In this document: piece by piece, positions 4,101 to 24,417 of the stretch | How positions within the stretch are numbered: position 1 is the first letter of the stretch | Layout of the letters: each line of letters starts with the position of its first letter | Program-made: the position numbers and the translations under genes | DNA from: Saccoglossus kowalevskii | Taxonomy: Eukaryota; Hemichordata; Enteropneusta; Harrimaniidae | Direction: 5' to 3' | DNA length: 24,635 nucleotides | Assembly (NCBI RefSeq): GCF_000003605.2 | Contig: NW_003132862.1 | Span: 21,987-46,621, forward strand | The notes under the pieces: generated by a model | What the model was told of the DNA's origin: nothing | Databases searched by the model: none | What the model saw: only the letters and a program-made list of their open reading frames with translations

Positions 4101-7100
4101 TGTTTACCAAGTAAATAAATCAAAACGATCATCGAACAAGGGAGAACAATAGCGTCCTATCTCCTCTCTTTTTACCTTCCATGGTCAAACCAATACATCT
4201 ATATATATATATCTATGACATGATGTATAATGAATATATAAAATTTGAACATAATCAGTCAAGGCATGCCAGAACCGCATTCATTAAAACACAAGCCATG
4301 CATGGCACAGTCCCCGTTAGTTATCAAATTTAAGATATATAGTTTTGTTTATAGTAATAAAGCTGGAATATAACCATGTCAGAAATATGATTTTTTAACA
4401 TTATAATGATTGACATTTGTATCTGATCGTCAAACAAGTACTTGTCCATATTGAGAGATATTGCTCTGGAACAGCATTCAAAATCAACCATTTTGTATAC
4501 ATGTATATACCGGTATATAACATGATGTATAACGAATATATAAAATTTGAACATAATCAGTCAAAACATTTAAGAGACATGGCTCTGGAAGCCCAATCAT
4601 TAAAACAAAATGGCCACCAGTCAGCCATTTTGAATCCAATCTGAATAATAAAATGACGTGCATCAGGAACCCGTAATGTCTAATGTATGTACCAAGTTTG
4701 AACGAAATCCATCTATAAATGCCAGAAATGCTTGCTATCTGATGATTTTTTAGCACAGAAATGACCACCATTCAGCCATATTGAATAGGATCGTCGAACC
4801 AATATATCTGTTTATCTATGACATGATGTATAATGAATATTTAAAATTTGAACATAATTAGTCAAAACAAGCCGGAGATACAATGTATGGGTCTAGAAGC
4901 CCATTCATTAAAACAAAATGGCCGCCAGACAGCCATTTTGAATCTGATCTAAAAAATAAATGATGTGCATCAGGAATCTGTAATGTCTAATATATGTACC
5001 AAGTTTGAACAAAATCCATCCATAAATGCCAGAAATGCTTGATATTTGATGATTTTTTAGCACAAAAATGGCCACCATTTGGCCACTTTAAATAGGATCG
5101 TCAAACCAATATATCTGTCTATCTATGACATGATGTATAATGAATATTTAAAATTTGAACATAATCAGTGAAAGCAAGTCAGAGATATGGCACGAGAACC
5201 ACATTCATTAAAACAAAATGGCCACCAGTCAGCCATTTTGAATATTATCTGAAAAACAAATAAATTATTTGCATCAAGGTCCCATAATGTCTAATGTATA
5301 TACCAAGTCTGAACAAAATCCATCTGTAAACAGCCGAGAAATGCTTGATTTTTAGGATTTTTTAGCACAAAAATGGCCGCCATTTGGCCATCTTGAATCA
5401 GATCCTAAAACAAAATGATGTGCATCAAGGTCCTATAATATCCAACGTATATACAAGGTTTGAACAAAATCCATCTGTAAACAGCTGGGAAATGCTTGAT
5501 TTTGATGATTTTTAGCACAAAAATGGCCGCCATTCGGCCATCTTGAATCAGATCGTGAAACAAATTGACGTGCATATGTATAATATCATGTATGATGTAT
5601 GTGTGAAGTTTGATTGTGATTGGTCCAGGCATTTCTAAGTTACAGGTCCAGACGCACGCACATACGCACGCACGCACGCACGCACGAACAGACACACAGA
5701 GGTCAAAACATAAGTCCTCGTTTTCGGACTGCGTCCGAACGGGGACTAAAAATGGCCACCAGTCATTTTGAATCCAATCTGAAAAACAAAATGACATGCA
5801 TCAGGGACCCATAATGTCCAATGCATATACCAAGTTTGAACAAAATCCATCTGTAAACAGCGGAGATCCGCTTTTGGAATGCCAGTGATGCTTGATTTTC
5901 AGCAGATCTTGAATCAGATCGAGAAAAAAATTATGTGCATATGTATAATATTATGTATGATGAATGTCTGAAGTTTGAATGTAATCAGTCCAGGCATGTC
6001 TAAGAAATAGGTCGGGACGACACATGAATGCATAAATGAATAATTTATGAGACTGTAGAGTCACATGATTATCCAAAGACACAATGCCATGGCAGATTCA
6101 ACATTTCACATGTATTGTGTTATTCTTAGATAATAATTTACCTTTGCTAGAAATTAACAGTGCACACACTCTAAACAGTGAGTGTGCTAAGTCTTCTTCA
6201 GATCCAGCATTACATGCCTTCTGTAGCTGTTTGATTAAAATCACTGCCAAGTTCAAAGGCATGTCTGAGTTCTCATAAATGGCTTTCATCCCAGTTACCT
6301 GTGAAATGAACAACTTGCTGTCAACTCAAAATCTGGCTATTTGGAAAGTCTGAACAAAAACTCTGAGGTAACTATTTTATGATTTACAAACCCCAGTTGT
6401 ATGCATCTTGACCAATATTCAATTTAAAAGTATTTTACAATTATTGTAAGATAAAAACTATGATTATTAGAAATTTGTATAGGAATAAATATTTATTTAT
6501 ACACTCCTAAATAGGGAGTTTCCAAAGTTCAGATTATTCCTGTACCAAAAATGTCTTAGAAGTTGATAAAACGTCTTTTATTTTCAATATACATTAAAAG
6601 TAAAGTTGCAATTCATAAATTGCCATAGCGCTGGGAATCTGGGTTTCTACAACTCTTCACCATTTCAATTCATTTAGATTTTGCTAAAATAAATTATGTC
6701 ACTTTTGCCACCATTTATGGCTAAGACTATTTTCAAACCATGAATTATTCTGCCAAAAATGGCCATCATGGTTACCCACAAAAATGTAAATAAAACATCA
6801 GGAAAAATATAATAAATGTTATGGTACAGTATCACATTTTTTCTCAAATCTTAGTGATTTTTTCATTTCTCTTCATTTGCGAAGTTGCTAAATAAGTTTG
6901 AAATTTGTTGTGAAAAACAATGAAGTATTATAAAGTGACTCAAACTTTTTTTATCTTTAGCTAAAGCCTAGGGCAAAAGGTTCAAAGTTATCTGAGTGAT
7001 TTAGTTTGCATAGGTACATGTACGTGACTAATGCTATTCGATGAATGGTGGGAAATATAATTTGCAGCAAGTCTTGATTGGATGTTTGTGGTGATTGTTT

Positions 7101-10100
7101 AGACTTTTAATATAATTCCTGAAAAAGACACGATTTGCTGAACATATACATAATTTAGAAAAAAAACGCTCATAATTCTCACGAAAATTGGTAAATATAT
7201 TTTGCAATTGACACATATTCATAAGTTTAAATAAGTCCAACACACCAACAACACTTATCATCATAACTTTTACATCTCAAAAGAAAAAACAAAGTGGTGA
7301 AAGGAATTAAAGAATTCAAGAACTTACTTCGCCAGTGTATCTACTTCTTAGACTCACGACAGATACAAAACTAGATGAATTGTTCTTTACGCAGCCTGGC
7401 CTTTTATCTAGAGAAGAACCCTAACAAATGAAACAACAGTATTAGTGATTACAGCCCAACTTGTCTGTCACATGAACCATTAGCATAACAACCCTTACAA
7501 AATGATGCTTGAGGGCGCAGCAGGATACCAGTTGTGATAATTTCACATCATAAGCATAGATTTTACAAATTCATTTAAAAGGTTTATCATATAAAACATT
7601 AAAATTGCTACGACAGGGGCAGTCTACCAATTTAAACAACAGCGATTTAAAGTAAAACACAGGTTTACAAAACAAGCAGTCTGTCGGCTGAGTTAGCTCC
7701 GCTGTTAGCAATGCACATTTCAATTAAATAACTGAAGATATCATTAGAAAATGAACAATATGTATAGTATCAAAGCAATGGGACTTGCTGTTTTCAACAA
7801 GAATTTGAAAAAATACCTTTTTACCAAAAATGACAAAAATATTCATCAAAATTAGAGAATCAAAAATATCATCACGAAATGAACAAATCTGAGAGCGGTA
7901 ATATATGATATCAAAGCAATCAGACTTGCATTTACAACAAGAAGTCAAAAATATAAATTTTTACCAAAAATGACAAAAATGTTCATCAAAATTAGAAAAT
8001 TGAAGATATCAACATGAAATTAACAAATTTGAGAGAAGACCATTTGTAGTACCTATAAGTATAATATTAAAGCAATGTGACTTGTGGTTTTTAACAGGAA
8101 GTCCAAAATATTCACCAAAATTATAGAATTGAAGATATCATCATGAAATGAACAAATCCAAAAGAGGTCTACCCAAAGTACATACACACCAAGTATCTAT
8201 TATTCAGGCTTGTAGTTTTCAAGAAGAAGTTGAAAAAATAAAAAAATTGACACGGACGATGATGGACGCCAACGGACAATCACTCATATGATAAGCCCCG
8301 CTCAACCAAGTCGACAGCGGAGCTAAAAAGTTCCACAAGGACATTAAAAATTTCTAGCGCTAAAAGACACTAGAATAACTACTAATACTCACACTAACTG
8401 ATTTATTATATCCTGCAAATTGAAGAGCGCTTTCTGTAGCCAAAGCCAGACCACTATGTTGAAAAGAACCATCGCTGGAATTCTCTCGTTCAACTAAATA
8501 TTGCTGTAAGTGTGATCTAGTAGGATTAGGGGCCCATTTTACTGCCTCTTGTAGAATACCACTACATCGAGCTGAAAAATCACGGACTATAGTCTGAAAA
8601 TAAAACATAATTACTCACTGATTCTTGTAAATGTGTGGAATCTGATATATGAAATGATTTATTCACAAATTGTTGATAAGGTCGGATTTCCAGCACTGTA
8701 TGATGGGGAAAATAGAATTCCAACTGTATATGGAGAAACAGAATCTGGAAATCCAGACAAGTATGGAAAAAAAAATCCTGGAAATCCAGGCAGTTATGGC
8801 TACTAAATAAAATATGGCCTAGTTTGTCTCGCCACATACCGGTTGATGAGGTTGGATTTCCAAGACTGTATGACTAAAAAAACTTGGAATTCTGACTGTA
8901 TATGGTAAAAAGATTGGGCCAGTACAAAATAGTTATTACTGAAATTAGATAAGGATGGTGGCACGAATGAGCTCATCAATACCGTGAATCAGGACTAGTT
9001 TGGATTTACATTATAAAATATAAAATTTTGAACTTTAAAAAATAGTAAATTAGCATATGATAGTTATATTTGGAAATCCTACTCTGTATGGTGGCACAAA
9101 AAAACTCATCAACACCATAAGTAGGAACTATAGTTTTGGATTTCCATCACTGTATGGTGAATGGTGATTTGGAAATAAAACTTTGTATGACTTAAACACC
9201 CTTGGAAATTATACCCTGTAAGAAGTAAACACACAAGCTCATCAACAGGGGGGGGGGGGGGAATGGAATGGCCCATTACATAACATGGGTACCATCCACC
9301 AATCAGGATACTTCATTTAATACATGGAGTATGTGTGTGTGTAAAATGACATAACTCTTCACCTTCATGTATATTAATGAGTGCCCAAAAATAGTCACTA
9401 TGTTTAGGTAGTCTTAACATTAAGGTGGTCACTGACATAGCTTTCACTGTATGTCCTTATGCAGCTTACATTATAGTAGAGATATTAACATTATCACTTC
9501 TCAAATAAAACCTCAGCTGTCACCTACTCGCACATAAATGCTAATAATTGACATGACTCAATTAATATTATATGACACACAGTCATACATGTTAAACTGA
9601 CCTCTCTAGCCTCCATAGTATCCATAACAGTCACTGTGAACTGAGTATTAGGTACTTGTACAACTGTAGCTTCCTGTGTTGGTTCATCTTCCAAAGACTT
9701 TGACAAGAGCTGTAGTATGTCCAGCATTGTAGTTACAACTCTTCCATTCCACAGTAAATGAGGAAATCTATGATATATAAAACAGGAAAATATTACCATG
9801 TAATGAATAGATATTATTTTGAAGCCATAATATTATTTGCAAATGGATGTTAACCATTAACCTGTTCACTACCAGAATCAAGTTTGACGCTCAACCTGCT
9901 AACTGCCAGAGTCAACATTGATCCTTAAGCTCTTCACTGCCAGAGTCAACTTTGACCCTTAAGCTCTTCACTGCCAGAGTCAACTTTGACCCTTACTTTC
10001 ACTGCCAGAGTCAACTTTGACCCTTAAGCTCTTCACTGCCAGAGTCAACTTTGACCCTTAAGCTCTTCACTGCCAGAGTCAACTTTGACCCTTAAGCTCT

Positions 10101-13100
10101 TCACTGCCAGAGTCAACTTTGACCCTTAAGCTCTTCACTGCCAGAGTCAACTTTGACCCTTAAGCTCTTCACTACCAGAGTCAACTTTGACCCTTAAGCT
10201 CTGCCAGAGTCAACTTTGACCCTTAACCTGTTCACTGCCAGAGTCAACTTTGACCCTTAAGCTATTCACTGCCAGAGTCAACTTTGACCCTTAAGCTATT
10301 CACTGCCAGAGTCAACTTTGACCCTTAAGCTATTCACTGCCAGAGTCAACTTTGACCCTTAAGCTCTGCACTGCCAGAGTCAACTTTGACCCTTAACCTG
10401 TTCACTGCCAGAGTCAACTTTGACCCTTAACCAGTTCACTGCCGGTCAACTTTGACCCTTAACCTGTTCACTGCCTGAGTCAACTTTGATCCTTAACCTG
10501 TTTACTGCCTGAGTCAACTTTGACCCTTAACATGTTTACTGCCTGAGTCAACTTTGACCCTTAACCTGTTCACTGCCAGAGTCAACTTTGACCCTTAACC
10601 TCTTCACTGCCAGAGTCAACTTTGACCCTCAACCTCTTCACTGCCAGAGTCAACTTTGACATTTAACCAGTTCACTGATCTAAATCTATATTATGTTTAG
10701 TACTGTGTTTGGTTCAAAACAAACATTTAAATTACAAACGTATTAAAAAATGAATCTGAACTTACTTGTCAACTAATCCAGATAAATATCTGTCAGCAAC
10801 TTTTCTTATTCTTCTCAAAACATGATTAAATTTGACAAGCAGGAATTGTGCATGGGTTTCCAGTTCTCGGTCTCTCACTTCAGTTCTTGGCTGAAATAAA
10901 ATATTACAGTTATTCTGCATGTATATAAATACATGAACAATTTGCTTTACAAGTTAACATGGTGATATTACTGTATTAGTTAATACACTGGACAATGTTT
11001 CTAACTTACCCTTTTTTCCATCAAGTTCAGGAACATTTTAAAAACTTGATCTGAGATCGCAGACAAACACTGCCACATACCAGCTTTGTCCTTCTGGATA
11101 GCCTTGTCCTCAAGATACCGAAACATTATGTGAAAGTCATCAGCAAGATTCTGTACACGTAACGTTTCCATACGAAACACAGACAGAAGGTATGTACACT
11201 GCGCAAAGCTAAGTTTGTTGACCAGTGGAATAACTTCAGGTGGATGCTCCAAGAGACTGAGAATAGTTTGACGTAGTTCATTCAACTCTGCCTGTTAACA
11301 AGTGACAGTGATAGATTTTAACAACAAAATTAAGATTTGTTTTAGATATAACAAAGTCTGTCAACACATTACAGAGCCATGCTATATATGAGATATTAAC
11401 CAGATTTTTTAAGGTAGAAAATGTAATTATGAAATTAAGTCTGAGTGTTATTCAGCACAACTTCATTATGTATTTATTAAAGATGTTATAATGTATTTGG
11501 TTTACTTATACTGTAAAGTCTGACTTTCGACGCTACAGAATCATTTCCAAATGCAGGGTTAGGTTTAACTCGTCTATGCTATAGTTTTATTTCATAATGT
11601 TTTACTCACCGGTGCTACGGTATCATTTCGTAATGCCGAGTTATACTGTAACTCTGATCTGAGATGTTCTCCACCAGCTAACGTAAGTAACGGAGACTTG
11701 GTTGCTATGACACGTACTCCATCATACCATTCTCTCGGCCACAAACCTGTCAAAAATTCACAAACGTGTACAAATTATTTCTCAATTAAAACCAAAATTC
11801 TAACAAGAGAAATTCATGCAGTACTACAAAAGGTTCAAGAATGCCACTACCAAACTTTCTCCACTAGAAGACCATTCTTAAAACCAAACTACAATACAGT
11901 ATATATTACCGTACTAAGACTACTGTATATACATGTATAAGGGTATCTATTGTGATTGAGTGTTGCTACATATGGTGCACGTGAAATATGGTATGTTATC
12001 ATCTGAATATGATGACTTTCAGTCTACACTGATTATATCTATGTAAGGCTCATACTTAATTACTTAAATTACTTAACACTATCAGTTTTCTTGGCAAAGT
12101 ATTTTGTGATAGGTATCAAAAGTTGTCTTTTGAGGTGAAAAGGTCAAATCCATCATTGCTTCAAAGACAATGATAACCAGAATAAGAAATATTATATAAT
12201 TATGTATTTTATAATCATAGTAAACCCTTACTTGTATATAATTTTACAATATTTTTTCTCAGGTTGACGAGTGAATACCACCAGAGTTTTTGCATGATTC
12301 CGAGCCACAAGTGAAACGTAATCATAATTCTCTGCTGATGCCAACTGTGTTGTCAATCGCGGGGTTATATATTTATCATATGCAAATCTGCATAATCGAA
12401 AAAGTGAAACAACAAAGTGTTGAAAGTATTGCTGAATTAACATAGGAAATCATTTCTCATATTGTAATTTCGCCAACGCCATGGTGTTCTATTTCACGCA
12501 AAGGCCTTGTGTGGCAATATTTGCTCCAATTCATTAGAATTATTTTTTAATTTCAATCTATTTTTTGGAGGATTGAATAATATTTTTGGAAATGAGAACA
12601 CATTAGATTGCCAAAATATATCATTTTTACCATTCGCAGTTATCGGGCTGTATATAAACAAAGTTTGGCAGTATTTGAAATCAAACTATGAGATTTTCAA
12701 TCTGTCTTGTATTACATCACTATGGAGATATGTGTGTTATACATAAGCAGCTATTCCTACCATAAGCCACTCTCATTCACCAACACAAAATACATGTTAG
12801 AAATGTTTGAGTGATGCATTTTGGGTAAATGACAACCACAAATAATAATGGGTAAAAAAAACTAGTCAGTGTACATACAGTGAAAAAATTAGTTAAATTT
12901 GATGTACTGGGTTGGTTTCCATGCAGTTTAGACAATCAGTTAATCAGGCTTTCTCAGTGTCAACAAGAAATATCTGTCACCTTGGATTTTAAATGCATTC
13001 TGGATTTTTCTAGAGCAGTAAGAAGCAAGGAAGCTACAAGGACGCAGTGAAATAAAAGCATATATAGCATGACTGCGTGGTTCACTTTTTCAAACATGGT

Positions 13101-16100
13101 CTGTATGTAAGCAATGCCCTCCCTTAGAGATTATATCACAGGATGCACTGCAAATCCAAGATGGCGGAAAGATTAGTACCAGGAGAAGTGATATTCCTTA
13201 TAAGGACATTTACTAAAGAAACAAACCCTGAATGTTAAAGCTATAAAGTCATCAATTAATAATTCATGCTTAAAATAGTATGAAGGTAAAACAAAACAAG
13301 ACACGACATGCACTGTTAGTAACTGTAGGAAACCACTTAAATAGAATACCTTGCTGTTTTCGCAACACTTCATGCGGGCACGACAAATATCATCAAAAAA
13401 AGGGATAAAATATGAATATATTAGATGAATATTATTACATTTTTGAATTGGTAGGATAAAGATGAAGTCTTTCTTCAATGTTCAATTCAAAGTGGGAGAC
13501 ATAACAACAACTGTTTATTTTATGTAAATAATTTTAAAAAGAAGATTGCAAATAAAATAAACAATCAGAGAAATTACTGAAGTTAGGAGGTCTTGTACAT
13601 GCAGTGTCTGCATTATAAACTGAAACTTAAGTAGCATAGATACACACATGTCAAGTAAATAGCTTAAAACATTGGGATAAACATTTGCAGGCATGAACTA
13701 AACTATGTTTTGTTTTTCAATCAATCAGTAGGCACATTTACTAGTAGGATAGGCAGTAGGAGAAGAGCTGAAGACTGTAGCCAAAAACATGGCTTAAAAA
13801 TATTTGAATGGAATGAGCATGTAGACTACAACAGAACTCAGTAGTAAAGTTAGAATAGAATGAAATGAAATGGAATGGAATGGAATGGAATGGAATGGAA
13901 TGGAATGGAATGGAATGGAATGGAATGGAATGGAATGGAATGGAATGGAATGGAATGGAATGGAATGGAATGGAATGGAATGGAATGGAATGGAATAGAA
14001 TAGAATAGAATAGAATAGAATAGAATAGAATAGAATAGAATAGAATAGAATAGAATAGAATAGAATATTGAATAAATAAAATATTACCAGCAGAAATTTT
14101 GCCTACAGATAACGAATAAATGGAACAATGAATAAACTGTCATTTTGATAATATGAATATATAAATATTTCCTAACAGTGTTGTTGGAAGTAAGGAGACA
14201 GAAAGTAGATAGCGTCAACAGTCTCATTCGATGGGATTTTATATCACTATAAGGAAAATTAATATCACTATGCGTATCCATAGTAAACAATGGATTCCAT
14301 AGTTTTAAAATAATAATAGAGTTGCATTTTGTGAGCATTTTTAAAGCTATATCGGGGTCTTGGTACTATTTTGTTAAACATTTGATTGTCTGAATCTGTG
14401 TAGATTGTGAGAAAACAAAGCAAATCTTTGTGAATAGACGTATTCTGGACTGATATTTAAAAGTGTTAAAATGAAATTCACACACAGTTAAATGGGAAAC
14501 CAAAACGATCACAAGCATTTAAATACACTGAAAAACATTTGCCATAATTCATACAAATACAGGCTTTCATATATGTGACATAATAATCCTAAAACTTCAA
14601 GACTCCCAAGTGTGCAACTTTATGAATGCTAGGACAATGAAAAAATCATAATTTTATGGTAAAGAATGGCAGCTCAAATCAATGATGTTTGTAATACATA
14701 TTTATTTTTTATGCAAGAGAGTAAAGTTAATTACAAATTCTTTCACTGGTAACTAGAGTTCTGAGGGACACAAGTGATTTTCTTCCTGCAATTGCTTGCA
14801 AATACATGTTTAATGGTCCACTCCTTCCCATCCCATTAATAAATGTCCCTAACTGTTGTTGAACTTACCTGATTCCTCAACTGCAAACCCCATGACAACA
14901 CAGTACAACCAGAAATCACGAAATAATTTATGTAAACGAGGTTTGGGATTACTGATTGGTGGAAGTCTTTTCACAAGCTGAGGAATGAGACAATACAACA
15001 TTATCATTTTTTTGTAAATGCATTATCACTTCAACAAAACATCTAATTTAACTAAGAAAATGTGAAATGTAGATATTCACATATAACAATATGTTAAATA
15101 TTATAACTTGGCCTAAAAAAATAAGTACACCTAAATTACCAGCATTCCTTACCAGTACCAAAACTGGGATAAGTATACATGTATCTAAATTACCAGCATT
15201 ACTTAATAATGCCAAAACTGGGATAAGTACATCTAAATGACCAGCATTCCTTACCAATGCCAAATCTGGGATAAGTACACCAAAATTACCAGCACATTAC
15301 TTACCAATGCCAAAACTGGGATAGGTACATCTAAATTACCAGCATTACTTACTAATGTCAAAACTGGGATAAGTACACCTAAATTACCAGCATTCCATAC
15401 CAATGCCAAAACTGGAATAAGTACACCTAAATTACCAGCATTCCTTACCAGTGCCAAAATTAAGTACACCTAAATTACCAGCATTACTTACCAATGCAAA
15501 AACTGGGATAAGTACACCTAAATTACCAGCATTACTTACCAATGCCAAAACTGGGATAAGTACACCTAAATTACCAGCATTACTTACCAATGCCAAAACT
15601 GGGATGAGTACACCTAAATTACCAGCACTACTTGATGCCTTCATAGTTGTTGACTTCTCACTGGCTCTTTTACCCTCTAAGCCCAACTGTACAAACAACT
15701 CCAGCAGTCTCACAAGCAGTTCATGTTGTTCAATTTCGCCCTCTAGATTTGCAGCGATGTTTGCTAGGGCATTGATAACAGCTAATGAACAGTGCCTGAC
15801 ATAGAAAAAATGCATGATTTGACATATGAAATACATTTGTACCATTTCATATTTAACTTGCATATTTAGAGGTCACACATGTATATGTAGATCATGAACA
15901 GATTACATTCTCTCTGCAAAGTTTACTGCACGTTTATAACCAAGTTTTTATTAAAAGTTTCACAATTATACAATTATACACCACCAAACTTAGATTTACA
16001 TTTAGTAAGTACTGTATGTGCACAGCTACAATTCTCAATATTCCATTGTATCAGCTATGCATAGATTTCTTGATCCAGAAGTCTTATAAAAGATTGTGTT

Positions 16101-22100: not shown

Positions 22101-24417
22101 CTGTTATCTATATTTTAAAATTGTTTTTTGAGTACGTTCCATTATTCACAATTCTACAAAATTTAACAGTCTATAGCCAAGACTGTTTGGATAATAAAAA
22201 GCAAAAAAAAAAAAATTCACTCCCGAGTGCCCACGAACCTGCATCTCTACCTTGAAGGGGAACCGCTCAATCCCATGGATTGCACCACATGCTCATGGGT
22301 AATTAACTCCGCCTCTGTCCACTAAGTAAATGAATGCTTATTATGCTCGCTCACTCAAACTGTGATTGACAGGCATTTTGCACACATTAGCCACCATTTT
22401 AAACTCGTGATTTTTACTTGTCGCGGCATGTTTCGACTGAAAACAACATCTTTTATATATCAAAAGCCCAACCAGACGAGTGTAATCAGTAGCGTACATA
22501 TTCATGCCCCGTAGAAATGTATTTGGAATCATAGCTTGATCTGTAAACATGGTAAATGGCACATTTCCCGGAGCTCCCATCACAATGTGAGCGGCTTGGT
22601 TCGGATTAACATACTAATTGCGGTGGCCATCTTATCCCTATTTACAGTATCGGTTCCCCTTTAAAGGCAAGTGCGAACATTTATGGGTGTGGACAATGTT
22701 GAATATTTGATTTTGGATGAAATTTACAAGTTTTTACAAGCCGTGCACTATAACACATCTGATAGTTACAACTCTAACATCAAGCATTATATAAAGTACC
22801 AATGTACTGTTTCGTTTTAATGGTTAAAGTACTGTTCAGTTACTGCACTGACCTGTCTCTTCCTTCACTGCCCAAACTAATAAATCCACACAGGCAGCAT
22901 TAGCATTAACTGCCAGCGAAAATGTATTTAGTGTCTTTCTGCTCTGACTCATAGTATCCTGACTTCTGTTCTGTAGTTCTGTCTGCCCAGATAAAAACAG
23001 ATCTCTAATGAAGGACTGCACATCTACTGTGAAGCTAGTGGGTAAATCTGATGATAAACGAAAGACTCATTAGTATATGCAGCCAAGGGGAGTAGTCAGA
23101 AGAGGACTAGAAGCATAGGAAGATAGTCAAAAGAGACTAGAAGCATGAGGAGGTAGTCAAAAAGAGACTAGAAACATGGGAGGTAGTCAAAAAGAGACTA
23201 AAACCATGGGGAGGCAGTAAGAAGAAGAATGATTAAAGCCGCAAGCAGCGTGAGGGGGCCAAGCGGACAAGATTCTGTTTCATAATTAATGAGGTCAGAC
23301 ACATAATAGATAATCAGGTAGTTTGAATGATCAGTAACATGAGGACGAAATGCAGTGAATTGGTTCCATGTATTTACCTGGTTTGGTTATCGAAATATGG
23401 TTTTAAGAATATATAATGAGCCATGTGCTTATGCATATTAATGAGGTTACATGATCATATATCATGGTAATCTCTTATGTCAGGTACATCTTTCGTTTAA
23501 TGCCTTCATTATGGCACTTGTTGCATGTCCCATTCTGCAACAGCGTTAAAGTTAAGCATATTAACGATCATGCATGACCATATATTTAGCCAAATCAGTC
23601 CAATACAACACATGTAATTGCAAAAGTACCATTTATGCAAAATCCAAGATGGCAGCCAAACCACGTGACTGATTAAAATTATATTTTTTCTTGCAACAAA
23701 CTATGACCAAACATCTTATAAACAGCATATCCAATTTTACCTATAATCCATGATGGTGGCCAAGCCATGTGACTGATCTGAAATATTTTTTAACATTCTG
23801 AAAGAGTTCCATATAGAAATGCAAAGCAGCAAATGAGAAGATAATCGCATAAATGTGGCACGACTAAAAAAACAACTTCCTGTTTAGAAGAAAACCAAAA
23901 TGGCGGCCAAACCATGTGACTAATCGTAACAAATTTTGCAAACTGAAATGTGCTTCATATATAGATGATGAAATACCATATGTGGGAGAATTTTGCTTAG
24001 TGGTTCTAAAGAAGAAGATTTAAATGTGTTTTTTGTCGTTTTTAGGAGAAAAAAGATGGCGTGACCGGTAAAGTTGTTATTGCTTACATGTATATCTGTT
24101 ACATATGAGTTGTACTATATGCCATAAAAAAATCTGACTGCCCTCAGAAAGTGGTCAAATAACCACTTCCGGTTTAATTTCAATTCAATATGGCTGCCGA
24201 ACCAATTGACCAATCAGAATTCTGAAAGTTAGGTGCACCAGAAACACTTACCTTCTTGATGATGAAGAAGATAGCGCAAGAGTGTTACCATGGCAACATT
24301 GATTGTTTCACTAAAACTATGATAAATGAAAGTTCTGTCAGCATTCCTTTCTCCGAGTTGATCCAACAGTGCATTGTCTAAAAACTTCAACACTTCTTTG
24401 TTCATTACTTTCTGAGC
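985..24417 (-). CDS. PI4KA: Phosphatidylinositol 4-kinase alpha, 20 internal exons (partial gene)
   Basis: PI4KA phosphorylates phosphatidylinositol at the 4-position to make PI4P, mainly at the plasma membrane. In known animals it works in a complex with TTC7, FAM126 and an EFR3 anchor. Twenty exons on the minus strand were placed by matching translated segments to the known family in the correct order; each has an AG acceptor and a GT donor and all phases join. The 1,034 codons cover the helical scaffold that holds the partners and shapes the dimer. The catalytic domain and both gene ends are outside the window. Landmarks include [77 protein letters not shown] and [15 protein letters not shown]. 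No frameshift or stop interrupts the joined exons, so the gene looks functional. The span is about 97% intron or repeat outside the exon entries below. Confidence 0.96.
1197..1591. other. PI4KA intron, no further feature
   Basis: 395 bp between the 19th and 20th exons. AT-rich, without an open frame, tandem repeat or inverted repeat that I could see. Confidence 0.6.
1592..1639 (-). CDS. PI4KA: PI4KA micro-exon (19th in window)
   Basis: A 48-nt exon, exactly 16 codons, phase 0 in and out. Acceptor TTCCCAATTTGCAG, donor GTGAGTTC. It reads [16 protein letters not shown], against FLVQRFEIAKYCSSDQ in the vertebrate protein. It is far too short to be seen as an open frame and was found from the missing family segment between IWTT and VEMFAILL. 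Its size, divisible by three, means skipping would keep the frame. Confidence 0.92.
1913..2062 (-). CDS. PI4KA: PI4KA exon (18th in window)
   Basis: 150 nt, phase 0 in and out (50 codons). Acceptor CAGTTTACTCAG, donor GTACGTTT. It reads [20 protein letters not shown], then [20 protein letters not shown] and [10 protein letters not shown]. The family has REMAGAWHMTVEQKFGLF and PPEVTPHYIWIDF. A CAG three codons upstream is a possible alternative acceptor but would bring in intronic sequence. Confidence 0.94.
2184..2675. repeat. 27-bp minisatellite with higher-order period
   Basis: About 18 tandem copies of a unit like GTCAGATTCTGTGTGACCTG followed by ACATGAG, in the intron between the 17th and 18th PI4KA exons. 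Because the unit is 9 codons long, frames stay open and read as repeated MSGHTESDL on the minus strand; this is not a gene. Variant units recur: a 26-bp unit beginning GAGGCAGATACTGTG occurs at 2301 and 2489, 188 bp apart, which equals seven units (6x27 + 26). This suggests a multi-unit block was duplicated. Confidence 0.93.
2811..2938 (-). CDS. PI4KA: PI4KA exon (17th in window)
   Basis: 128 nt, phase 1 in, phase 0 out. Acceptor TTTTTTATTTCAG, donor GTATAGAATA. It reads [20 protein letters not shown], then [20 protein letters not shown] and LQ. The family has [19 protein letters not shown] and [16 protein letters not shown]. The join to the next exon skips about three residues present in the vertebrate protein (VPFMR region). 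The preceding intron (2939-6141) is over 3 kb and full of repeats. Confidence 0.95.
3254..3260. repeat. Target-site duplication, left copy
   Basis: GTCAAAC, directly before the TIR element. The same seven bases follow the element at 4184-4190. If the terminal C of the element is counted with the flank, the duplication is 8 bp (GTCAAACC). Confidence 0.8.
3508..3515. promoter_or_regulatory. CRE palindrome TGACGTCA inside TIR element
   Basis: Full consensus cAMP-response element, overlapping an E-box (CACGTGACGTCA at 3504-3515). It follows two TGCGCA motifs (from 3460 to 3496) in the GC-richer core of the element. This looks like a promoter module, though no transcript is shown. It lies at the 3' end of the 84-codon frame, so it would sit correctly for plus-strand transcription rather than for that frame. 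Confidence 0.5.
3513..3767 (-). CDS. 84-codon frame inside TIR element, function unknown
   Basis: Starts at ATG 3767 in a strong context (AAAATGGCG) and reads [20 protein letters not shown] to a stop at 3513. I see no transmembrane segment, zinc-binding pattern or transposase signature; it has a basic middle (RIIRSRWKQ). An open frame extends upstream to 3791 with an alternative ATG. It may be a fragment of a captured gene or chance. I do not recognise it. Confidence 0.3.
   Translation of the reverse strand: MAKLLFFSPSHITAYKQDKAYSKVPDIKFHLSFLNTSRDNRACRFFVFKNGTSLRAETEQRIIRSRWKQLTSVLFPVPGLVNDL
5653..5698. repeat. (ACGC)n microsatellite
   Basis: A short ACGCACGC run with variants, ending in ACAGACACACAG. 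It comes just before the terminal hairpin at 5713-5747, an order typical of the tail of a dispersed repeat. Confidence 0.85.
5713..5747. repeat. Hairpin AGTCCTCGTTTTCGGAC / GTCCGAACGGGGACT
   Basis: Two arms of 17 and 15 nt pair around TGC with few mismatches, followed by TAAAAA. It is GC-rich against an AT-rich background. It resembles the terminal stem-loop of a dispersed element (Helitron-like ends have a hairpin near CTRR), but no matching 5' end is identified. Confidence 0.7.
6142..6298 (-). CDS. PI4KA: PI4KA exon (16th in window)
   Basis: 157 nt, phase 0 in, phase 1 out. Acceptor TTCATTTCACAG, donor GTAAATTATT. It reads [20 protein letters not shown], then [20 protein letters not shown] and [12 protein letters not shown]. 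The family has VYGMIRF at the start and FKLTAMLISSKD at the end; the middle is divergent. The last G joins GT of the next exon to give Gly. Confidence 0.9.
6299..7327. other. PI4KA intron, no further feature
   Basis: About 1 kb of AT-rich intron between the 15th and 16th exons. No convincing open frame, tandem repeat or inverted repeat was found. The open frame at 7034-7264 on the minus strand has no family features. Confidence 0.55.
7328..7420 (-). CDS. PI4KA: PI4KA exon (15th in window)
   Basis: 93 nt, phase 0 in and out (31 codons). The acceptor is CATTTGTTAG with a weak pyrimidine tract; the donor is GTAAGTTC. It reads [20 protein letters not shown], then [11 protein letters not shown]. 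The family has LSERPACVKKDYSNFMASL and NLRNRYAGE before VYGM. It was recovered by looking for the missing segment between FAGYNK and VTGMKAI. Confidence 0.92.
7693..8326. mobile_element. TIR-bounded element built of ~180-bp subrepeats
   Basis: TTAGCTCCGCTGT at 7693-7705 is mirrored exactly as ACAGCGGAGCTAA at 8314-8326. The interior consists of about three divergent copies of a ~180-bp unit containing ATCAAAGCAATG, CAACAAGAA, ACCAAAAATGACAAAAAT and TTCATCAAAATTAGA. The right end contains a GC-richer tail (ACGGACGATGATGGACGCC). No coding capacity is apparent. No target duplication was identified. Confidence 0.65.
8393..8593 (-). CDS. PI4KA: PI4KA exon (14th in window)
   Basis: 201 nt, phase 0 in and out (67 codons). 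Acceptor TGTTTTATTTTCAG, donor GTGAGTATTA. It reads [20 protein letters not shown], then [39 protein letters not shown] and SVS. The family has [20 protein letters not shown] and HTGLAMATESILHFAGYNK. An alternative donor GTTAGT six bases earlier would remove two residues; GTGAGT is the better site. Confidence 0.95.
8670..9250. repeat. Degenerate repeat of GGATTTCCA..CTGTATG motif
   Basis: Variants of TTGGATTTCCAGCACTGTATG and its complement-like phrase CTGGAAATCCAG recur at uneven spacing of roughly 30-60 bp. GCTCATCAACA also recurs. The copies are too diverged to give a clean unit length. The region ends in the G-run at 9248-9261. Confidence 0.5.
9248..9261 (+). repeat. G14 homopolymer
   Basis: Fourteen consecutive G on the plus strand, unusual in this AT-rich sequence. 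Such a run can form a G-quadruplex and is prone to sequencing length error. Confidence 0.9.
9602..9767 (-). CDS. PI4KA: PI4KA exon (13th in window)
   Basis: 166 nt, phase 2 in, phase 0 out. Acceptor TTATATATCATAG, donor GTCAGTTT. It reads [20 protein letters not shown], then [20 protein letters not shown] and [12 protein letters not shown]. The family has FPHLLWSGTVLKTMLDILQ and VPDTYEARES. The middle of the exon is shorter and more divergent than the vertebrate version. Confidence 0.95.
9858..10676. repeat. 34-bp minisatellite
   Basis: About 24 tandem copies with unit TTCACTGCCAGAGTCAACTT then TGACCCTTAAGCTC, measured as exactly 34 bp between successive CCCTTAAGCT phrases (10021, 10055, 10089). 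It lies in the intron between the 12th and 13th PI4KA exons. Central units are almost identical and both ends are more diverged, as expected for unequal exchange. Each unit holds the near-dyad GTCAACTTTGAC and a TGACC half-site. Confidence 0.95.
10766..10890 (-). CDS. PI4KA: PI4KA exon (12th in window)
   Basis: 125 nt, phase 0 in, phase 2 out. Acceptor ATATTTTATTTCAG, donor GTAAGTTCAG. It reads [20 protein letters not shown], then [20 protein letters not shown] and D. The family has ELERHAQFLLVNFNH and [15 protein letters not shown]. The exon ends with AA, completed by A of the next exon to Lys. A 34-bp minisatellite begins about 90 bp downstream in the following intron. Confidence 0.95.
11010..11291 (-). 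CDS. PI4KA: PI4KA exon (11th in window)
   Basis: 282 nt, the largest exon here, phase 0 in and out (94 codons). Acceptor CTTGTTAACAG, donor GTAAGTTAG. It reads [20 protein letters not shown], then [38 protein letters not shown] and [12 protein letters not shown]. The family has AELSELRSTIINLL, STYLLSVYRLEYMRV and [17 protein letters not shown]. The start codon is not here: the frame is open through the acceptor. Confidence 0.96.
11528..11575 (-). pseudogene. Decayed tandem copy of the end of the 10th PI4KA exon
   Basis: On the plus strand, CGACGCTACAGAATCATTTC continuing to 11575 aligns with the exon end at 11610-11663. The first 34 aligned positions match at 26, and the rest aligns with small gaps. 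In transcript direction it still reads [11 protein letters not shown] against [11 protein letters not shown], but a 1-nt deletion breaks the frame upstream and the GTGAGT donor is lost. It sits only 34 bp past the real donor. It looks like an old local duplication of an exon/donor segment. Confidence 0.7.
11610..11746 (-). CDS. PI4KA: PI4KA exon (10th in window)
   Basis: 137 nt, phase 1 in, phase 0 out. Acceptor AATTTTTGACAG, donor GTGAGTAAAA. It reads [20 protein letters not shown], then [20 protein letters not shown] and DTVAP. The family has [20 protein letters not shown] and YNSAMKNDTVTP. A decayed copy of the last third of this exon lies 34 bp inside the following intron (see the entry at 11528-11575). 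Confidence 0.95.
11747..13870. other. PI4KA intron, mostly featureless
   Basis: Long intron between the 9th and 10th exons (which continues to 14868). It contains one minus-strand open frame at 12228-12443 ([17 protein letters not shown].., not recognised) and several ATGGCG start-like contexts. No conserved family is recognisable and no PI4KA segment is missing here. Confidence 0.5.
13871..13995. repeat. (TGGAA)25 pentamer satellite
   Basis: Twenty-five perfect copies of TGGAA with no interruption. This is the same pentamer as human satellites II/III (GGAAT). The flank at 13853-13870 has imperfect TAGAA/TGAAA versions. Confidence 0.98.
13996..14065. repeat. (TAGAA)14 pentamer satellite
   Basis: Fourteen perfect copies of TAGAA, directly continuing the TGGAA run in the same register. 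The single G-to-A change has been homogenised across the right third of the array, so the two blocks are separate expansions of one array. Confidence 0.98.
14066..14868. other. PI4KA intron, no further feature
   Basis: Remainder of the long intron. AT-rich; the minus-strand open frame at 14084-14338 has low-complexity composition and no recognisable family. Confidence 0.55.
14869..14977 (-). CDS. PI4KA: PI4KA exon (9th in window)
   Basis: 109 nt, phase 0 in, phase 1 out. Acceptor TCTCATTCCTCAG, donor GTAAGTTC. It reads [20 protein letters not shown], then [16 protein letters not shown]. The family has [20 protein letters not shown] and WLYSVLMGFAVEGSG. The final G joins GT of the next exon to give Gly before LWPREW. 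Confidence 0.95.
15112..15635 (-). repeat. 48-bp array copying a PI4KA exon end and its splice donor
   Basis: About ten and a half tandem units; the first (15588-15635) overlaps the authentic exon end. In transcript direction each unit is 41 nt of exon (GCTGGTAATTTAGGTGTACT .. TTGGCATTG) plus GTAAGTA of the intron. Donor GT positions precede exon-side ends at 15588, 15540, 15492, 15449, 15401, 15353, 15305, 15255 and 15153; the unit at 15207 has lost GT. Spacing is 48 except 43 (a 5-nt deletion), 50 and 54. Units read [16 protein letters not shown] in frame for two extra copies, then the deletion shifts frame and a stop follows at 15432. Confidence 0.96.
15588..15795 (-). CDS. PI4KA: PI4KA exon (8th in window), end amplified in tandem
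   Basis: 208 nt, phase 2 in, phase 0 out. Acceptor TTTTCTATGTCAG. It reads [20 protein letters not shown], then [18 protein letters not shown] and [18 protein letters not shown]. Most of these residues match the vertebrate protein. I chose the donor GTAAGTAATG at 15587 because joining here to the next exon gives [14 protein letters not shown], matching family length. The end of this exon plus the first 7 intron bases is the unit of the 48-bp array downstream. The frame stays open through the next units, so donors at 15539 and 15491 would add 16 or 32 residues. Confidence 0.95.
15796..16541. other. PI4KA intron, no further feature
   Basis: About 750 bp of intron between the 7th and 8th exons. 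A small hairpin (GTGTTG..CAACAC near 16098-16114) is the only structure noted; no tandem repeat or open frame with family features. Confidence 0.55.
16542..16648 (-). CDS. PI4KA: PI4KA exon (7th in window)
   Basis: 107 nt, phase 0 in, phase 2 out. Acceptor ATCTTTTCTAG, donor GTATAATC. It reads [20 protein letters not shown], then [16 protein letters not shown] with the last codon split. The family has IYQEVWNLFQQISVKASS and ends DYKDHGYR at the same junction before HCSLAV. No long open frame marks this exon; it was placed from the family order. Confidence 0.92.
16860..17043 (-). CDS. PI4KA: PI4KA exon (6th in window)
   Basis: 184 nt, phase 2 in, phase 0 out. The acceptor is GTTGTTGTCTTGAAG; an in-frame TGA lies just inside the intron, which fixes the exon start. 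Donor GTAAGTCT. It reads [20 protein letters not shown], then [19 protein letters not shown] and [20 protein letters not shown]. The family has [20 protein letters not shown] and [20 protein letters not shown]. This is one of the strongest matches in the window. Confidence 0.96.
17256..17351 (-). CDS. PI4KA: PI4KA exon (5th in window)
   Basis: 96 nt, phase 2 in, phase 2 out. Acceptor CATTTAACAG, donor GTGAGATT. It reads [20 protein letters not shown] followed by [11 protein letters not shown]. The family equivalent contains CLKAGL and EAFLASLSNRLYISQES. The frame is fixed by the preceding exon (AG+A, Arg) and the following exon (AG+G, Arg). Confidence 0.93.
17468..17706 (-). CDS. PI4KA: PI4KA exon (4th in window)
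   Basis: 239 nt, phase 0 in, phase 2 out. Acceptor CTTTGTTTCAG. The donor is GTTCGTAT, a clear departure from the GTAAGT consensus and the weakest donor of the set. The translation begins [15 protein letters not shown], continues [19 protein letters not shown] (family: LRDFLVIPSPVLVKLYKYH) and ends [13 protein letters not shown] (family: YEQLRDIAIDNICR). The final AG joins A of the next exon to give Arg. Confidence 0.95.
17782..17790. repeat. 9-bp target-site duplication, left copy
   Basis: GAACTGCAT immediately outside the left end of the Mutator-like element. Confidence 0.88.
18053..18060 (+). promoter_or_regulatory. CRE palindrome upstream of cargo gene
   Basis: TGACGTCA within ATGATGACGTCACCGGGCAG, 37 bp before the ATG at 18097. 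This is the full consensus for CREB/ATF factors and a common TATA-less promoter motif. Position and orientation fit a promoter for the plus-strand gene. Confidence 0.55.
18097..18368 (+). CDS. Small intron-containing gene carried by the Mutator-like element
   Basis: Exon 1 is 18097-18143, starting at ATG in a strong context (AAAATGGCGG) and ending at donor GTAAGTTT. After a 74-nt intron with acceptor TCGACTTTAG, exon 2 runs 18218-18368. The CG|A junction restores Arg and the frame is open to TAG. The product is 65 residues: a short N-terminus ([16 protein letters not shown]), one hydrophobic segment of about 14 residues ([13 protein letters not shown]), then [20 protein letters not shown] with a possible N-glycosylation site (NTS). 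An alternative donor at 18354 joins in frame to an exon at 18641 (acceptor CTTCCATTCTAG) giving a 72-residue product ending LSDVKLKR. It is probably a type II or signal-anchored membrane protein. I do not recognise the family. The strand is antisense to PI4KA. Confidence 0.5.
18796..18801 (+). terminator. Poly(A) signal AATAAA of cargo gene
   Basis: AATAAA about 430 bp past the stop at 18368 and 120 bp past the alternative stop at 18676, still inside the unique core of the element. It is the natural end for the plus-strand transcript. The motif is common by chance in AT-rich DNA. Confidence 0.4.
19038..20373. other. Sequence inserted into right arm of the Mutator-like element
   Basis: About 1.33 kb without a counterpart in the left arm. 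It interrupts the arm between AAAATAATAA and AAATAAAAGGG; TAA may be duplicated at both ends. ACCTTGCCC near 19069 and GGGCAAGGT at 20364-20372 form a 9-bp inverted pair, but the first lies about 30 bp inside the break. The right part has a dispersed-repeat-like segment (CCAAGTTTGGTGAAGTTTGG, then a GACGACGACGGCGACAAC run). No recognisable gene. Confidence 0.5.
20479..20487. repeat. 9-bp target-site duplication, right copy
   Basis: GAACTGCAT immediately outside the right end of the Mutator-like element, identical to 17782-17790. Confidence 0.88.
20699..20799 (-). CDS. PI4KA: PI4KA exon (3rd in window)
   Basis: 101 nt, phase 1 in, phase 0 out. The acceptor has a run of seven T then CCAG; the donor is GTAAAATA. 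It reads [17 protein letters not shown], then [16 protein letters not shown], which matches the family stretch that ends in AHLPLLICCLQ before GLG. This exon is too short to stand out as an open frame and was found by searching for the missing family segment. It lies just outside the right end of the Mutator-like element, so that insertion did not disrupt it. Confidence 0.9.
20800..21324. other. PI4KA intron, no further feature
   Basis: AT-rich intron between the 2nd and 3rd exons of the window. The frame at 20833-21015 on the minus strand is low complexity and unrecognised. Confidence 0.5.
21325..22253. mobile_element. Inverted-repeat element, 15-bp TIR
   Basis: AAGGTAGAGATGCAG at 21325-21339 is mirrored perfectly by CTGCATCTCTACCTT at 22239-22253, 929 bp apart. 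The interior is AT-rich with no coding potential. No target duplication could be defined because the right end abuts another inverted pair. It is probably a MITE-like non-autonomous DNA transposon. Confidence 0.6.
22250..22667. mobile_element. Inverted-repeat element, ~17-bp TIR
   Basis: CCTTGAAGGGGAACCG at 22250-22265 pairs with CGGTTCCCCTTTAAAGG at 22651-22667 with one gap and one mismatch. The 418-bp interior is richer in GC than its surroundings and holds an open frame on the minus strand (22341-22583, [20 protein letters not shown]..) that I do not recognise, and an AAGATGGCC start-like context near 22630. It overlaps the end of the neighbouring element by CCTT. Confidence 0.6.
22853..23047 (-). 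CDS. PI4KA: PI4KA exon (2nd in window)
   Basis: 195 nt, entered in phase 1 and left in phase 1. Acceptor TTTATCATCAG, donor GTCAGTGC (GTCAGT is weaker than the GTAAGT used by most exons here). The translation runs [20 protein letters not shown] to [18 protein letters not shown]. This last motif is nearly identical to the vertebrate protein ([16 protein letters not shown]) and makes the identification secure. The final G joins GT of the next exon to restore Gly. Confidence 0.95.
23090..23225. repeat. Short minisatellite, ~34-38-bp unit
   Basis: Four to five imperfect copies of a unit like GTAGTCAAAAAGAGACTAGA then AGCATGGGGAG in the intron between the 1st and 2nd exons. It is followed by GCCGCAAGCAGCGTGAGGGG, which looks like the end of a dispersed repeat. 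Confidence 0.75.
23636..24220. repeat. Diverged repeats with ATGGCGGCC..CCATGTGAC core
   Basis: The core occurs four times on the plus strand: CAAGATGGCAGCCAAACCAC at 23645, CATGATGGTGGCCAAGCCAT near 23749, CAAAATGGCGGCCAAACCAT near 23895 and AATATGGCTGCCGAACCAAT near 24187. Each is followed by a GTGACTGATC-like phrase. Spacing is irregular (about 105-290 bp). The first half matches the YY1 recognition consensus. It is noncoding intron. Confidence 0.65.
24252..24417 (-). CDS. PI4KA: PI4KA exon (1st in window)
   Basis: 166 nt, phase 0 in and phase 1 out. It follows a pyrimidine-rich acceptor ending CTCTCCAG and is closed by donor GTAAGTG. It reads [20 protein letters not shown], then a segment with [15 protein letters not shown] and [10 protein letters not shown]. 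The family equivalent is the stretch after the NLVKKIVEEAVLK helix, which has a similar YTSFSDPLYLTMFK motif. The last base (G) joins AT of the next exon to give Asp, so DLPTSF reads across the junction. The upstream exons are beyond the right edge of the window. Confidence 0.9.

Follow-up and report, generated by a model that had tools for sequence, protein, structure and literature searches.

What becomes of a splice donor when the exon end that carries it has been copied repeatedly into the intron behind it? This question is raised by a window of 24,635 nucleotides from Saccoglossus kowalevskii (the window being the whole stretch of DNA analyzed), the minus strand of which encodes much of phosphatidylinositol 4-kinase alpha (PI4KA). 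The exon at 15588-15795 matches residues 704-775 of the solved PI4KA chain 9b9g_A (E 1.7e-23), which we take to be a structure of the human protein. In the assembly (572,110,611 bases in 4830 contigs were searched, and all match counts are lower bounds), the PI4KA N-terminal region was found with PF19274, whose 7 matches all lie on the contig of the array described below. In addition, residues 170-1201 of P0002, a database protein of S. kowalevskii named 1-phosphatidylinositol 4-kinase, match the window in 22 pieces: 14 are at 97-100% identity, six at 62-93% are taken to overrun exon ends or gaps, and two match copies of the array weakly. These three lines of evidence bear out the gene name given in a first-pass annotation of this DNA.

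The repeat at this locus is a 48-bp tandem array at 15121-15633, for which TRF reports 10.6 copies, 87% matches, and a score of 758. The first-pass annotation had set its limits at 15112..15635; the array itself is real, but it ends near 15121, not 15112. Between 15112 and 15121 the partial last unit passes into TTTTTTAGG, an acceptor-like sequence that lies within the intron. The array shares 46 bp with the PI4KA exon and thus spans the exon/intron edge. Read on the coding strand, each unit consists of GTAAGTA, the first 7 nucleotides of the intron, followed by the final 41 nucleotides of the exon, which is the composition that had been proposed. The exonic match reaches 5 nucleotides further upstream, to an AAGTA common to the exon and the donor, for a total of 46 exonic nucleotides. 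Splitting the minus strand by unit gives an exon-end unit (u0), nine full intronic copies (u1-u9; 48, 48, 43, 48, 48, 48, 50, 48, and 54 bp, in order), and a partial copy (u10). The first base of u0, at 15634, has no match in the other copies. A genome query with 15400-15640 returned at least 3 matches, every one at this locus. With the donor at the exon end numbered D0 and those that end u1 to u9 numbered D1 to D9, the features are as follows, with their basis in parentheses.

15588..15795, minus strand: PI4KA exon with the likely source copy (translation; 9b9g_A and P0002 matches)
15587..15634, minus strand: u0, exon-end unit, 47 exonic nucleotides plus the first intron G (unit split)
15629..15633, minus strand: exonic AAGTA, the same as the AAGTA of the donor GTAAGTA at 15585-15581 (sequence; putative role)
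15539..15586, minus strand: u1, first intronic copy, in frame, ending at D1, exon end 15540 (unit split)
15491..15538, minus strand: u2, second intronic copy, in frame, ending at D2, exon end 15492 (unit split)
15448..15490, minus strand: u3, 43 bp with a 5-nucleotide deletion, frame shifted, ending at D3, GTAAGG (unit split)
15152..15447, minus strand: u4-u9, six more full copies with D4-D9 (unit split)
15121..15151, minus strand: u10, partial final copy of about 31 nucleotides, then intron (TRF, unit split)
14978..15587, minus strand: array-bearing intron, if D0 is used (sequence; P0002 match)
14869..14977, minus strand: next PI4KA exon (translation; P0002 match)

The array retains GT at nine of its ten unit boundaries (D0-D7 and D9), in line with the earlier count of about nine donors; at D8 there is TT instead. 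The sequence GTAAGT stands at five of these nine donors, of which four (D0, D1, D2, and D6) are identical as TTG/GTAAGT. Among the distal donors, D4 is GTATGG, D5 is GTAAGT after an A, D6 is TTG/GTAAGT, and both D7 and D9 are GTAAGG. Pairing with the 5' end of U1 was computed at -10.7 kcal/mol for each of D0, D1, D2, and D6, at -8.5 for D3, D7, and D9, at -7.2 for D5, at -4.7 for D4, and at -4.2 for D8. Thirteen other PI4KA donors in the window, with exon ends picked by eye, average -8.2 kcal/mol (range -12.5 to -5.1). Since the computed U1 pairing of D1, D2, and D6 equals that of D0, the donors themselves give D0 no advantage. Selection against the distal donors is suggested by one way of counting but not by another. 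Substitutions are more frequent in donor columns than in the rest of the unit when cells are counted (9/81 vs. 12/351, Fisher p 0.008), a value inflated by shared variants; by changed columns, counted by hand, the comparison is 5/9 vs. 11/39 (p 0.14), and D6 is still perfect. A possible GCAUU/AAUGC hairpin around each donor was rejected, as the RNA folds no better than shuffled sequence: the 520-nucleotide array has a z of -0.54, with 25 of 100 shuffles folding as well, and the surroundings of D0 a z of -0.47 (66 of 200 shuffles). Rfam at gathering scores gave no match in 14800-15900.

The consequences of donor choice can be read from the frame, for which each donor was spliced in silico to the next two exons. 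D0 yields the normal PI4KA protein. D1 and D2 are in frame, adding 16 and 32 residues, respectively, and neither introduces a stop, as had been claimed for the first two extra copies. D3-D9 all lead to premature stops: D3-D6 are out of frame, the stop of D3 falling in the next exon, while D4-D9 sit behind in-frame stops within the array, and D7-D9 are back in frame by length yet remain behind those stops. The 5-nucleotide deletion was also said to limit the in-frame set, with a stop following, and this agrees with the 43-bp length of u3 and the frameshift and stop of D3.

The protein databases give a view of which donor is used. P0002 joins 15588 to 14977, which corresponds to use of D0, and skips the array. 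Just downstream, it leaves the frame of the window and reads GFANSSLW. P0002 is weak evidence on account of this departure, and because the support behind the model was not seen. P0002 represents two sequences clustered at 90% identity, and such a cluster could conceal an isoform. P0002 reads GFANSSLWPREW where the window exons 14869-14977 and 11610-11746 read otherwise, and Glandiceps is like the window; the model may be wrong at this point.

Two protein searches (the best 120 of 298 and the best 120 of 922 matches, some rows without names) listed 219 proteins in all, P0002 included; many are fish isoforms, and these are not independent. The one S. kowalevskii entry among the matches listed uses D0. 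Anchors on both sides of the junction are present in 209 of the 219, and their spacing is 28 in 206 of these 209, the exceptions being P0077 (27), P0109 (29), and P0085 (69). None of the 209 anchored proteins listed carries an array-type insert. P0085, a fish model, has a different, 41-residue insert; it starts at this very junction and resembles a retained intron, a hint of an old intron position. Of the ten proteins without both anchors, P0100, P0124, P0126, and P0131 have an ordinary junction by eye; P0102, P0111, P0113, P0121, P0128, and P0154 show no first anchor in their printed pieces, and P0128 shows neither anchor. PI4KA of Glandiceps talaboti, an acorn worm, has an ordinary junction with no insert.

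The first-pass annotation knew of no described case in which a minisatellite unit is itself an exon end plus donor in a core lipid kinase. As to kind, the available parts of the literature hold precedents in ABCA7, CBS, and IFI6; as to a core lipid kinase, they hold nothing to the contrary. The original paper on the CBS 31-bp VNTR is reportedly that of Lievers in 2001, and a 1995 paper by Turri announces in its title that the IFI6 minisatellite provides multiple splice donor sites. The IFI6 repeat unit is 12 bp.

The excerpts on human ABCA7 describe a 25-bp VNTR in intron 18 whose first two bases are those of the exon 18 donor (PMC5954066). Retention of one unit amounts to 2 +/- 1%, if "respectively" follows the listed order of the two events, and is constant over VNTR size, while exon 19 skipping rises with size (PMC5954066). 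As far as these excerpts go, ABCA7 resembles the PI4KA locus in having an array at the exon/intron edge that opens with a real donor, in drawn units that begin with donor bases, and in that the donor one unit downstream is used in cDNA (PMC5954066). On the other hand, the ABCA7 unit is 25 bp, starts from the donor GT, and is out of frame when retained, whereas the PI4KA unit is 48 bp, includes 41 coding nucleotides, and is in frame. The partial texts on human CBS give a 31-bp VNTR, c.1444_1467+7(16_21), with 16 to 21 repeats (PMC2630376), located at exon 13-intron 13 (PMC1395315). By our reading of the variant name, its unit holds 24 exonic and 7 intronic nucleotides, the same layout as in PI4KA, and the gene encodes a core metabolic enzyme; in contrast, 31 bp is not a multiple of 3 and the copies are more numerous. 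In the CBS 844ins68 allele, as described in the same excerpt, an intron 7/exon 8 junction is duplicated, and splicing strongly prefers the more distal of the two sites (PMC2630376). In human IFI6 (6-16), according to the part of the text available, two downstream units of a minisatellite are used as donors, giving three mRNA species (PMC4526556). IFI6 thus shares with the PI4KA array a minisatellite with multiple splice donors, although its unit is shorter and its gene is interferon-induced rather than a core kinase. Excerpts on intron gain by tandem genomic duplication describe exonic AGGT duplications that make new introns (PMC3443670). There, too, a coding stretch is duplicated and splice sites are doubled, but those events create introns, whereas in PI4KA an existing exon/donor edge is copied into an existing intron. 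Human cases are cited or mentioned in passing in the available parts of PMC2572611, PMC3618361, and PMC5188458; the part of PMC7277093 at hand contains no VNTR, and the literature excerpts on competing donors held little (PMC8724738).

The ABCA7, CBS, and IFI6 cases mean that this kind of repeat is already known, and by edge overlap and donor-bearing units the PI4KA array, as judged from its sequence, is one of them. No printed account of the PI4KA array itself was found in a thin search that covered the species or gene name for the best 8 of 1,452 records. What is new is the lineage (an invertebrate deuterostome), the gene (a core lipid kinase), and, as a special feature, the in-frame unit. 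The locus is a ready-made natural setting in which to study how donors are chosen, as four identical donors (D0, D1, D2, and D6) and weaker ones stand 43-54 nucleotides apart in one intron, and the outcome is readable from the frame as +16, +32, or a stop.

The account we favor, and consider probable as a whole, is that the end of a PI4KA exon and its donor were duplicated in tandem, probably via the shared AAGTA, and then expanded inside the intron. D0 would remain the main donor and yield the conserved protein. The downstream donors would be mostly silent, with D1 and D2 perhaps leaking at a low level to add 16 or 32 residues; use of any later donor would give premature stops and probably mRNA decay. 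The anatomy, the reading frames, and the first-donor protein model are direct observations. That P0002 skips the array and that 206 of 209 proteins share the same spacing suggest that D0 is probably the main donor and that leak to the next one is rare. By analogy, the one-unit retention in ABCA7 offers a parallel for such a low leak. Against the dominance of D0 stand the identical U1 pairing of D1, D2, and D6 and the use of downstream units in IFI6; moreover, the preference for the more distal site in CBS 844ins68 means that the original site need not win.

If the later donors were used more often, D3-D7 and D9 could act as poison donors, their premature stops leading to mRNA decay, such that a longer array would lower PI4KA output. 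The stops predicted for every donor from D3 on, and a D6 that pairs with U1 on a par with D0, would fit this alternative. However, in the ABCA7 excerpts the effect of length is tied to exon 19 skipping and not to unit retention, and the decay of donor columns, which would fit selection against donors when cells are counted, does so with only p 0.14 by columns. We regard this alternative as unlikely.

Still less probable is functional use of D1 and D2, which would produce PI4KA with 16 or 32 extra residues in a range set by array length. Both donors are in frame and stop-free and match D0 at all 9 bases flanking the splice point, and IFI6 does use its downstream units. Yet the insert occurs in none of the 209 anchored proteins listed, and it is missing from the S. 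kowalevskii model as well. By chance alone, one unit length in three would be divisible by 3, as 48 bp is, and most of this unit (41 of 48 nucleotides) derives from an open frame; by this argument, its openness needs no selection. Unit retention in ABCA7, in the parts of that paper available, also does not change with VNTR size. A stronger form, in which a natural population with variable copy number would carry graded PI4KA isoforms with 0, 1, or 2 extra 16-residue solenoid copies set by donor competition, we think very improbable. An assembly artefact in the presence or length of the array is just as hard to credit, for although there is a single assembly and a single contig, the copies carry distinct substitutions and indels and the flanking exons continue in the PI4KA frame; collapse in the assembly could still alter the copy number.

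If the array arose as in the favored account, its origin may be traced to the short homology at its edges. AAGTA is found twice, 48 bp apart, in the exon (...GGCATCAAGTAGTGCTGG...) and at the exon end with its donor (...GGCATTGGTAAGTA...). The founding duplication probably took place through this 5-bp homology between exon and donor, an event that would yield the observed unit. Conservation of its protein sequence in other animals, in whose PI4KAs a 12-residue stretch of it recurs with small variants, makes the exon copy the most likely source of the array. Two inner positions set the full intronic copies apart from the exon, and all nine share these differences; they therefore probably stem from a single intronic copy, the exon itself not having been replaced. 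Substitutions from the consensus number 0, 1, 2, 2, 4, 2, 2, 5, and 3 in u1-u9, rising away from the exon (rho 0.78, p 0.013; permutation p 0.007). The rise is not significant without u1, which equals the consensus, and u2 (rho 0.51, p 0.24), and pairwise divergence between copies does not grow with their separation along the array (p 0.51). These values are a weak indication that the youngest copies may adjoin the exon. The arrangement suggests a way for a minisatellite to begin at a splice donor, through short homology between that donor and its own exon.

Tandem repeats occur elsewhere in the genome and the window. A genome sample of 20 stretches of 10 kb, each from the start of one of 20 contigs, held 9 minisatellite arrays by our thresholds in 122,138 readable bases of 200,000; six stretches are all N and four partly N, and four are almost wholly satellite, so that contig ends are over-represented in the sample. 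In the window, 15 TRF rows resolve into 10 distinct arrays, nine of which were compared with 20 exons of our choosing; among these nine, only the PI4KA donor array touches an exon. The tenth, at 5652-5686, touches none of the 20 by coordinates. A 34-bp minisatellite of 24.6 copies at 9853-10677 takes up the greater part of a different PI4KA intron, which lies between the exons ending at 10766 and starting at 9767; the repeat is 86 bp from the nearer of the two. At 2186-2673, a 27-bp minisatellite of 18.2 copies, with a 188-bp period too, lies within a PI4KA intron, and 124 bp separate it from the nearest exon. The stretch 4516-5575 consists of longer tandem repeats (307 and 151 bp), and a GAATG pentamer is repeated 42.8 times with 98% matches at 13853-14066. 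Lastly, a 30/61-bp tandem repeat at 23088-23225 lies 41 bp from the exon at 22853-23047, on its acceptor side.
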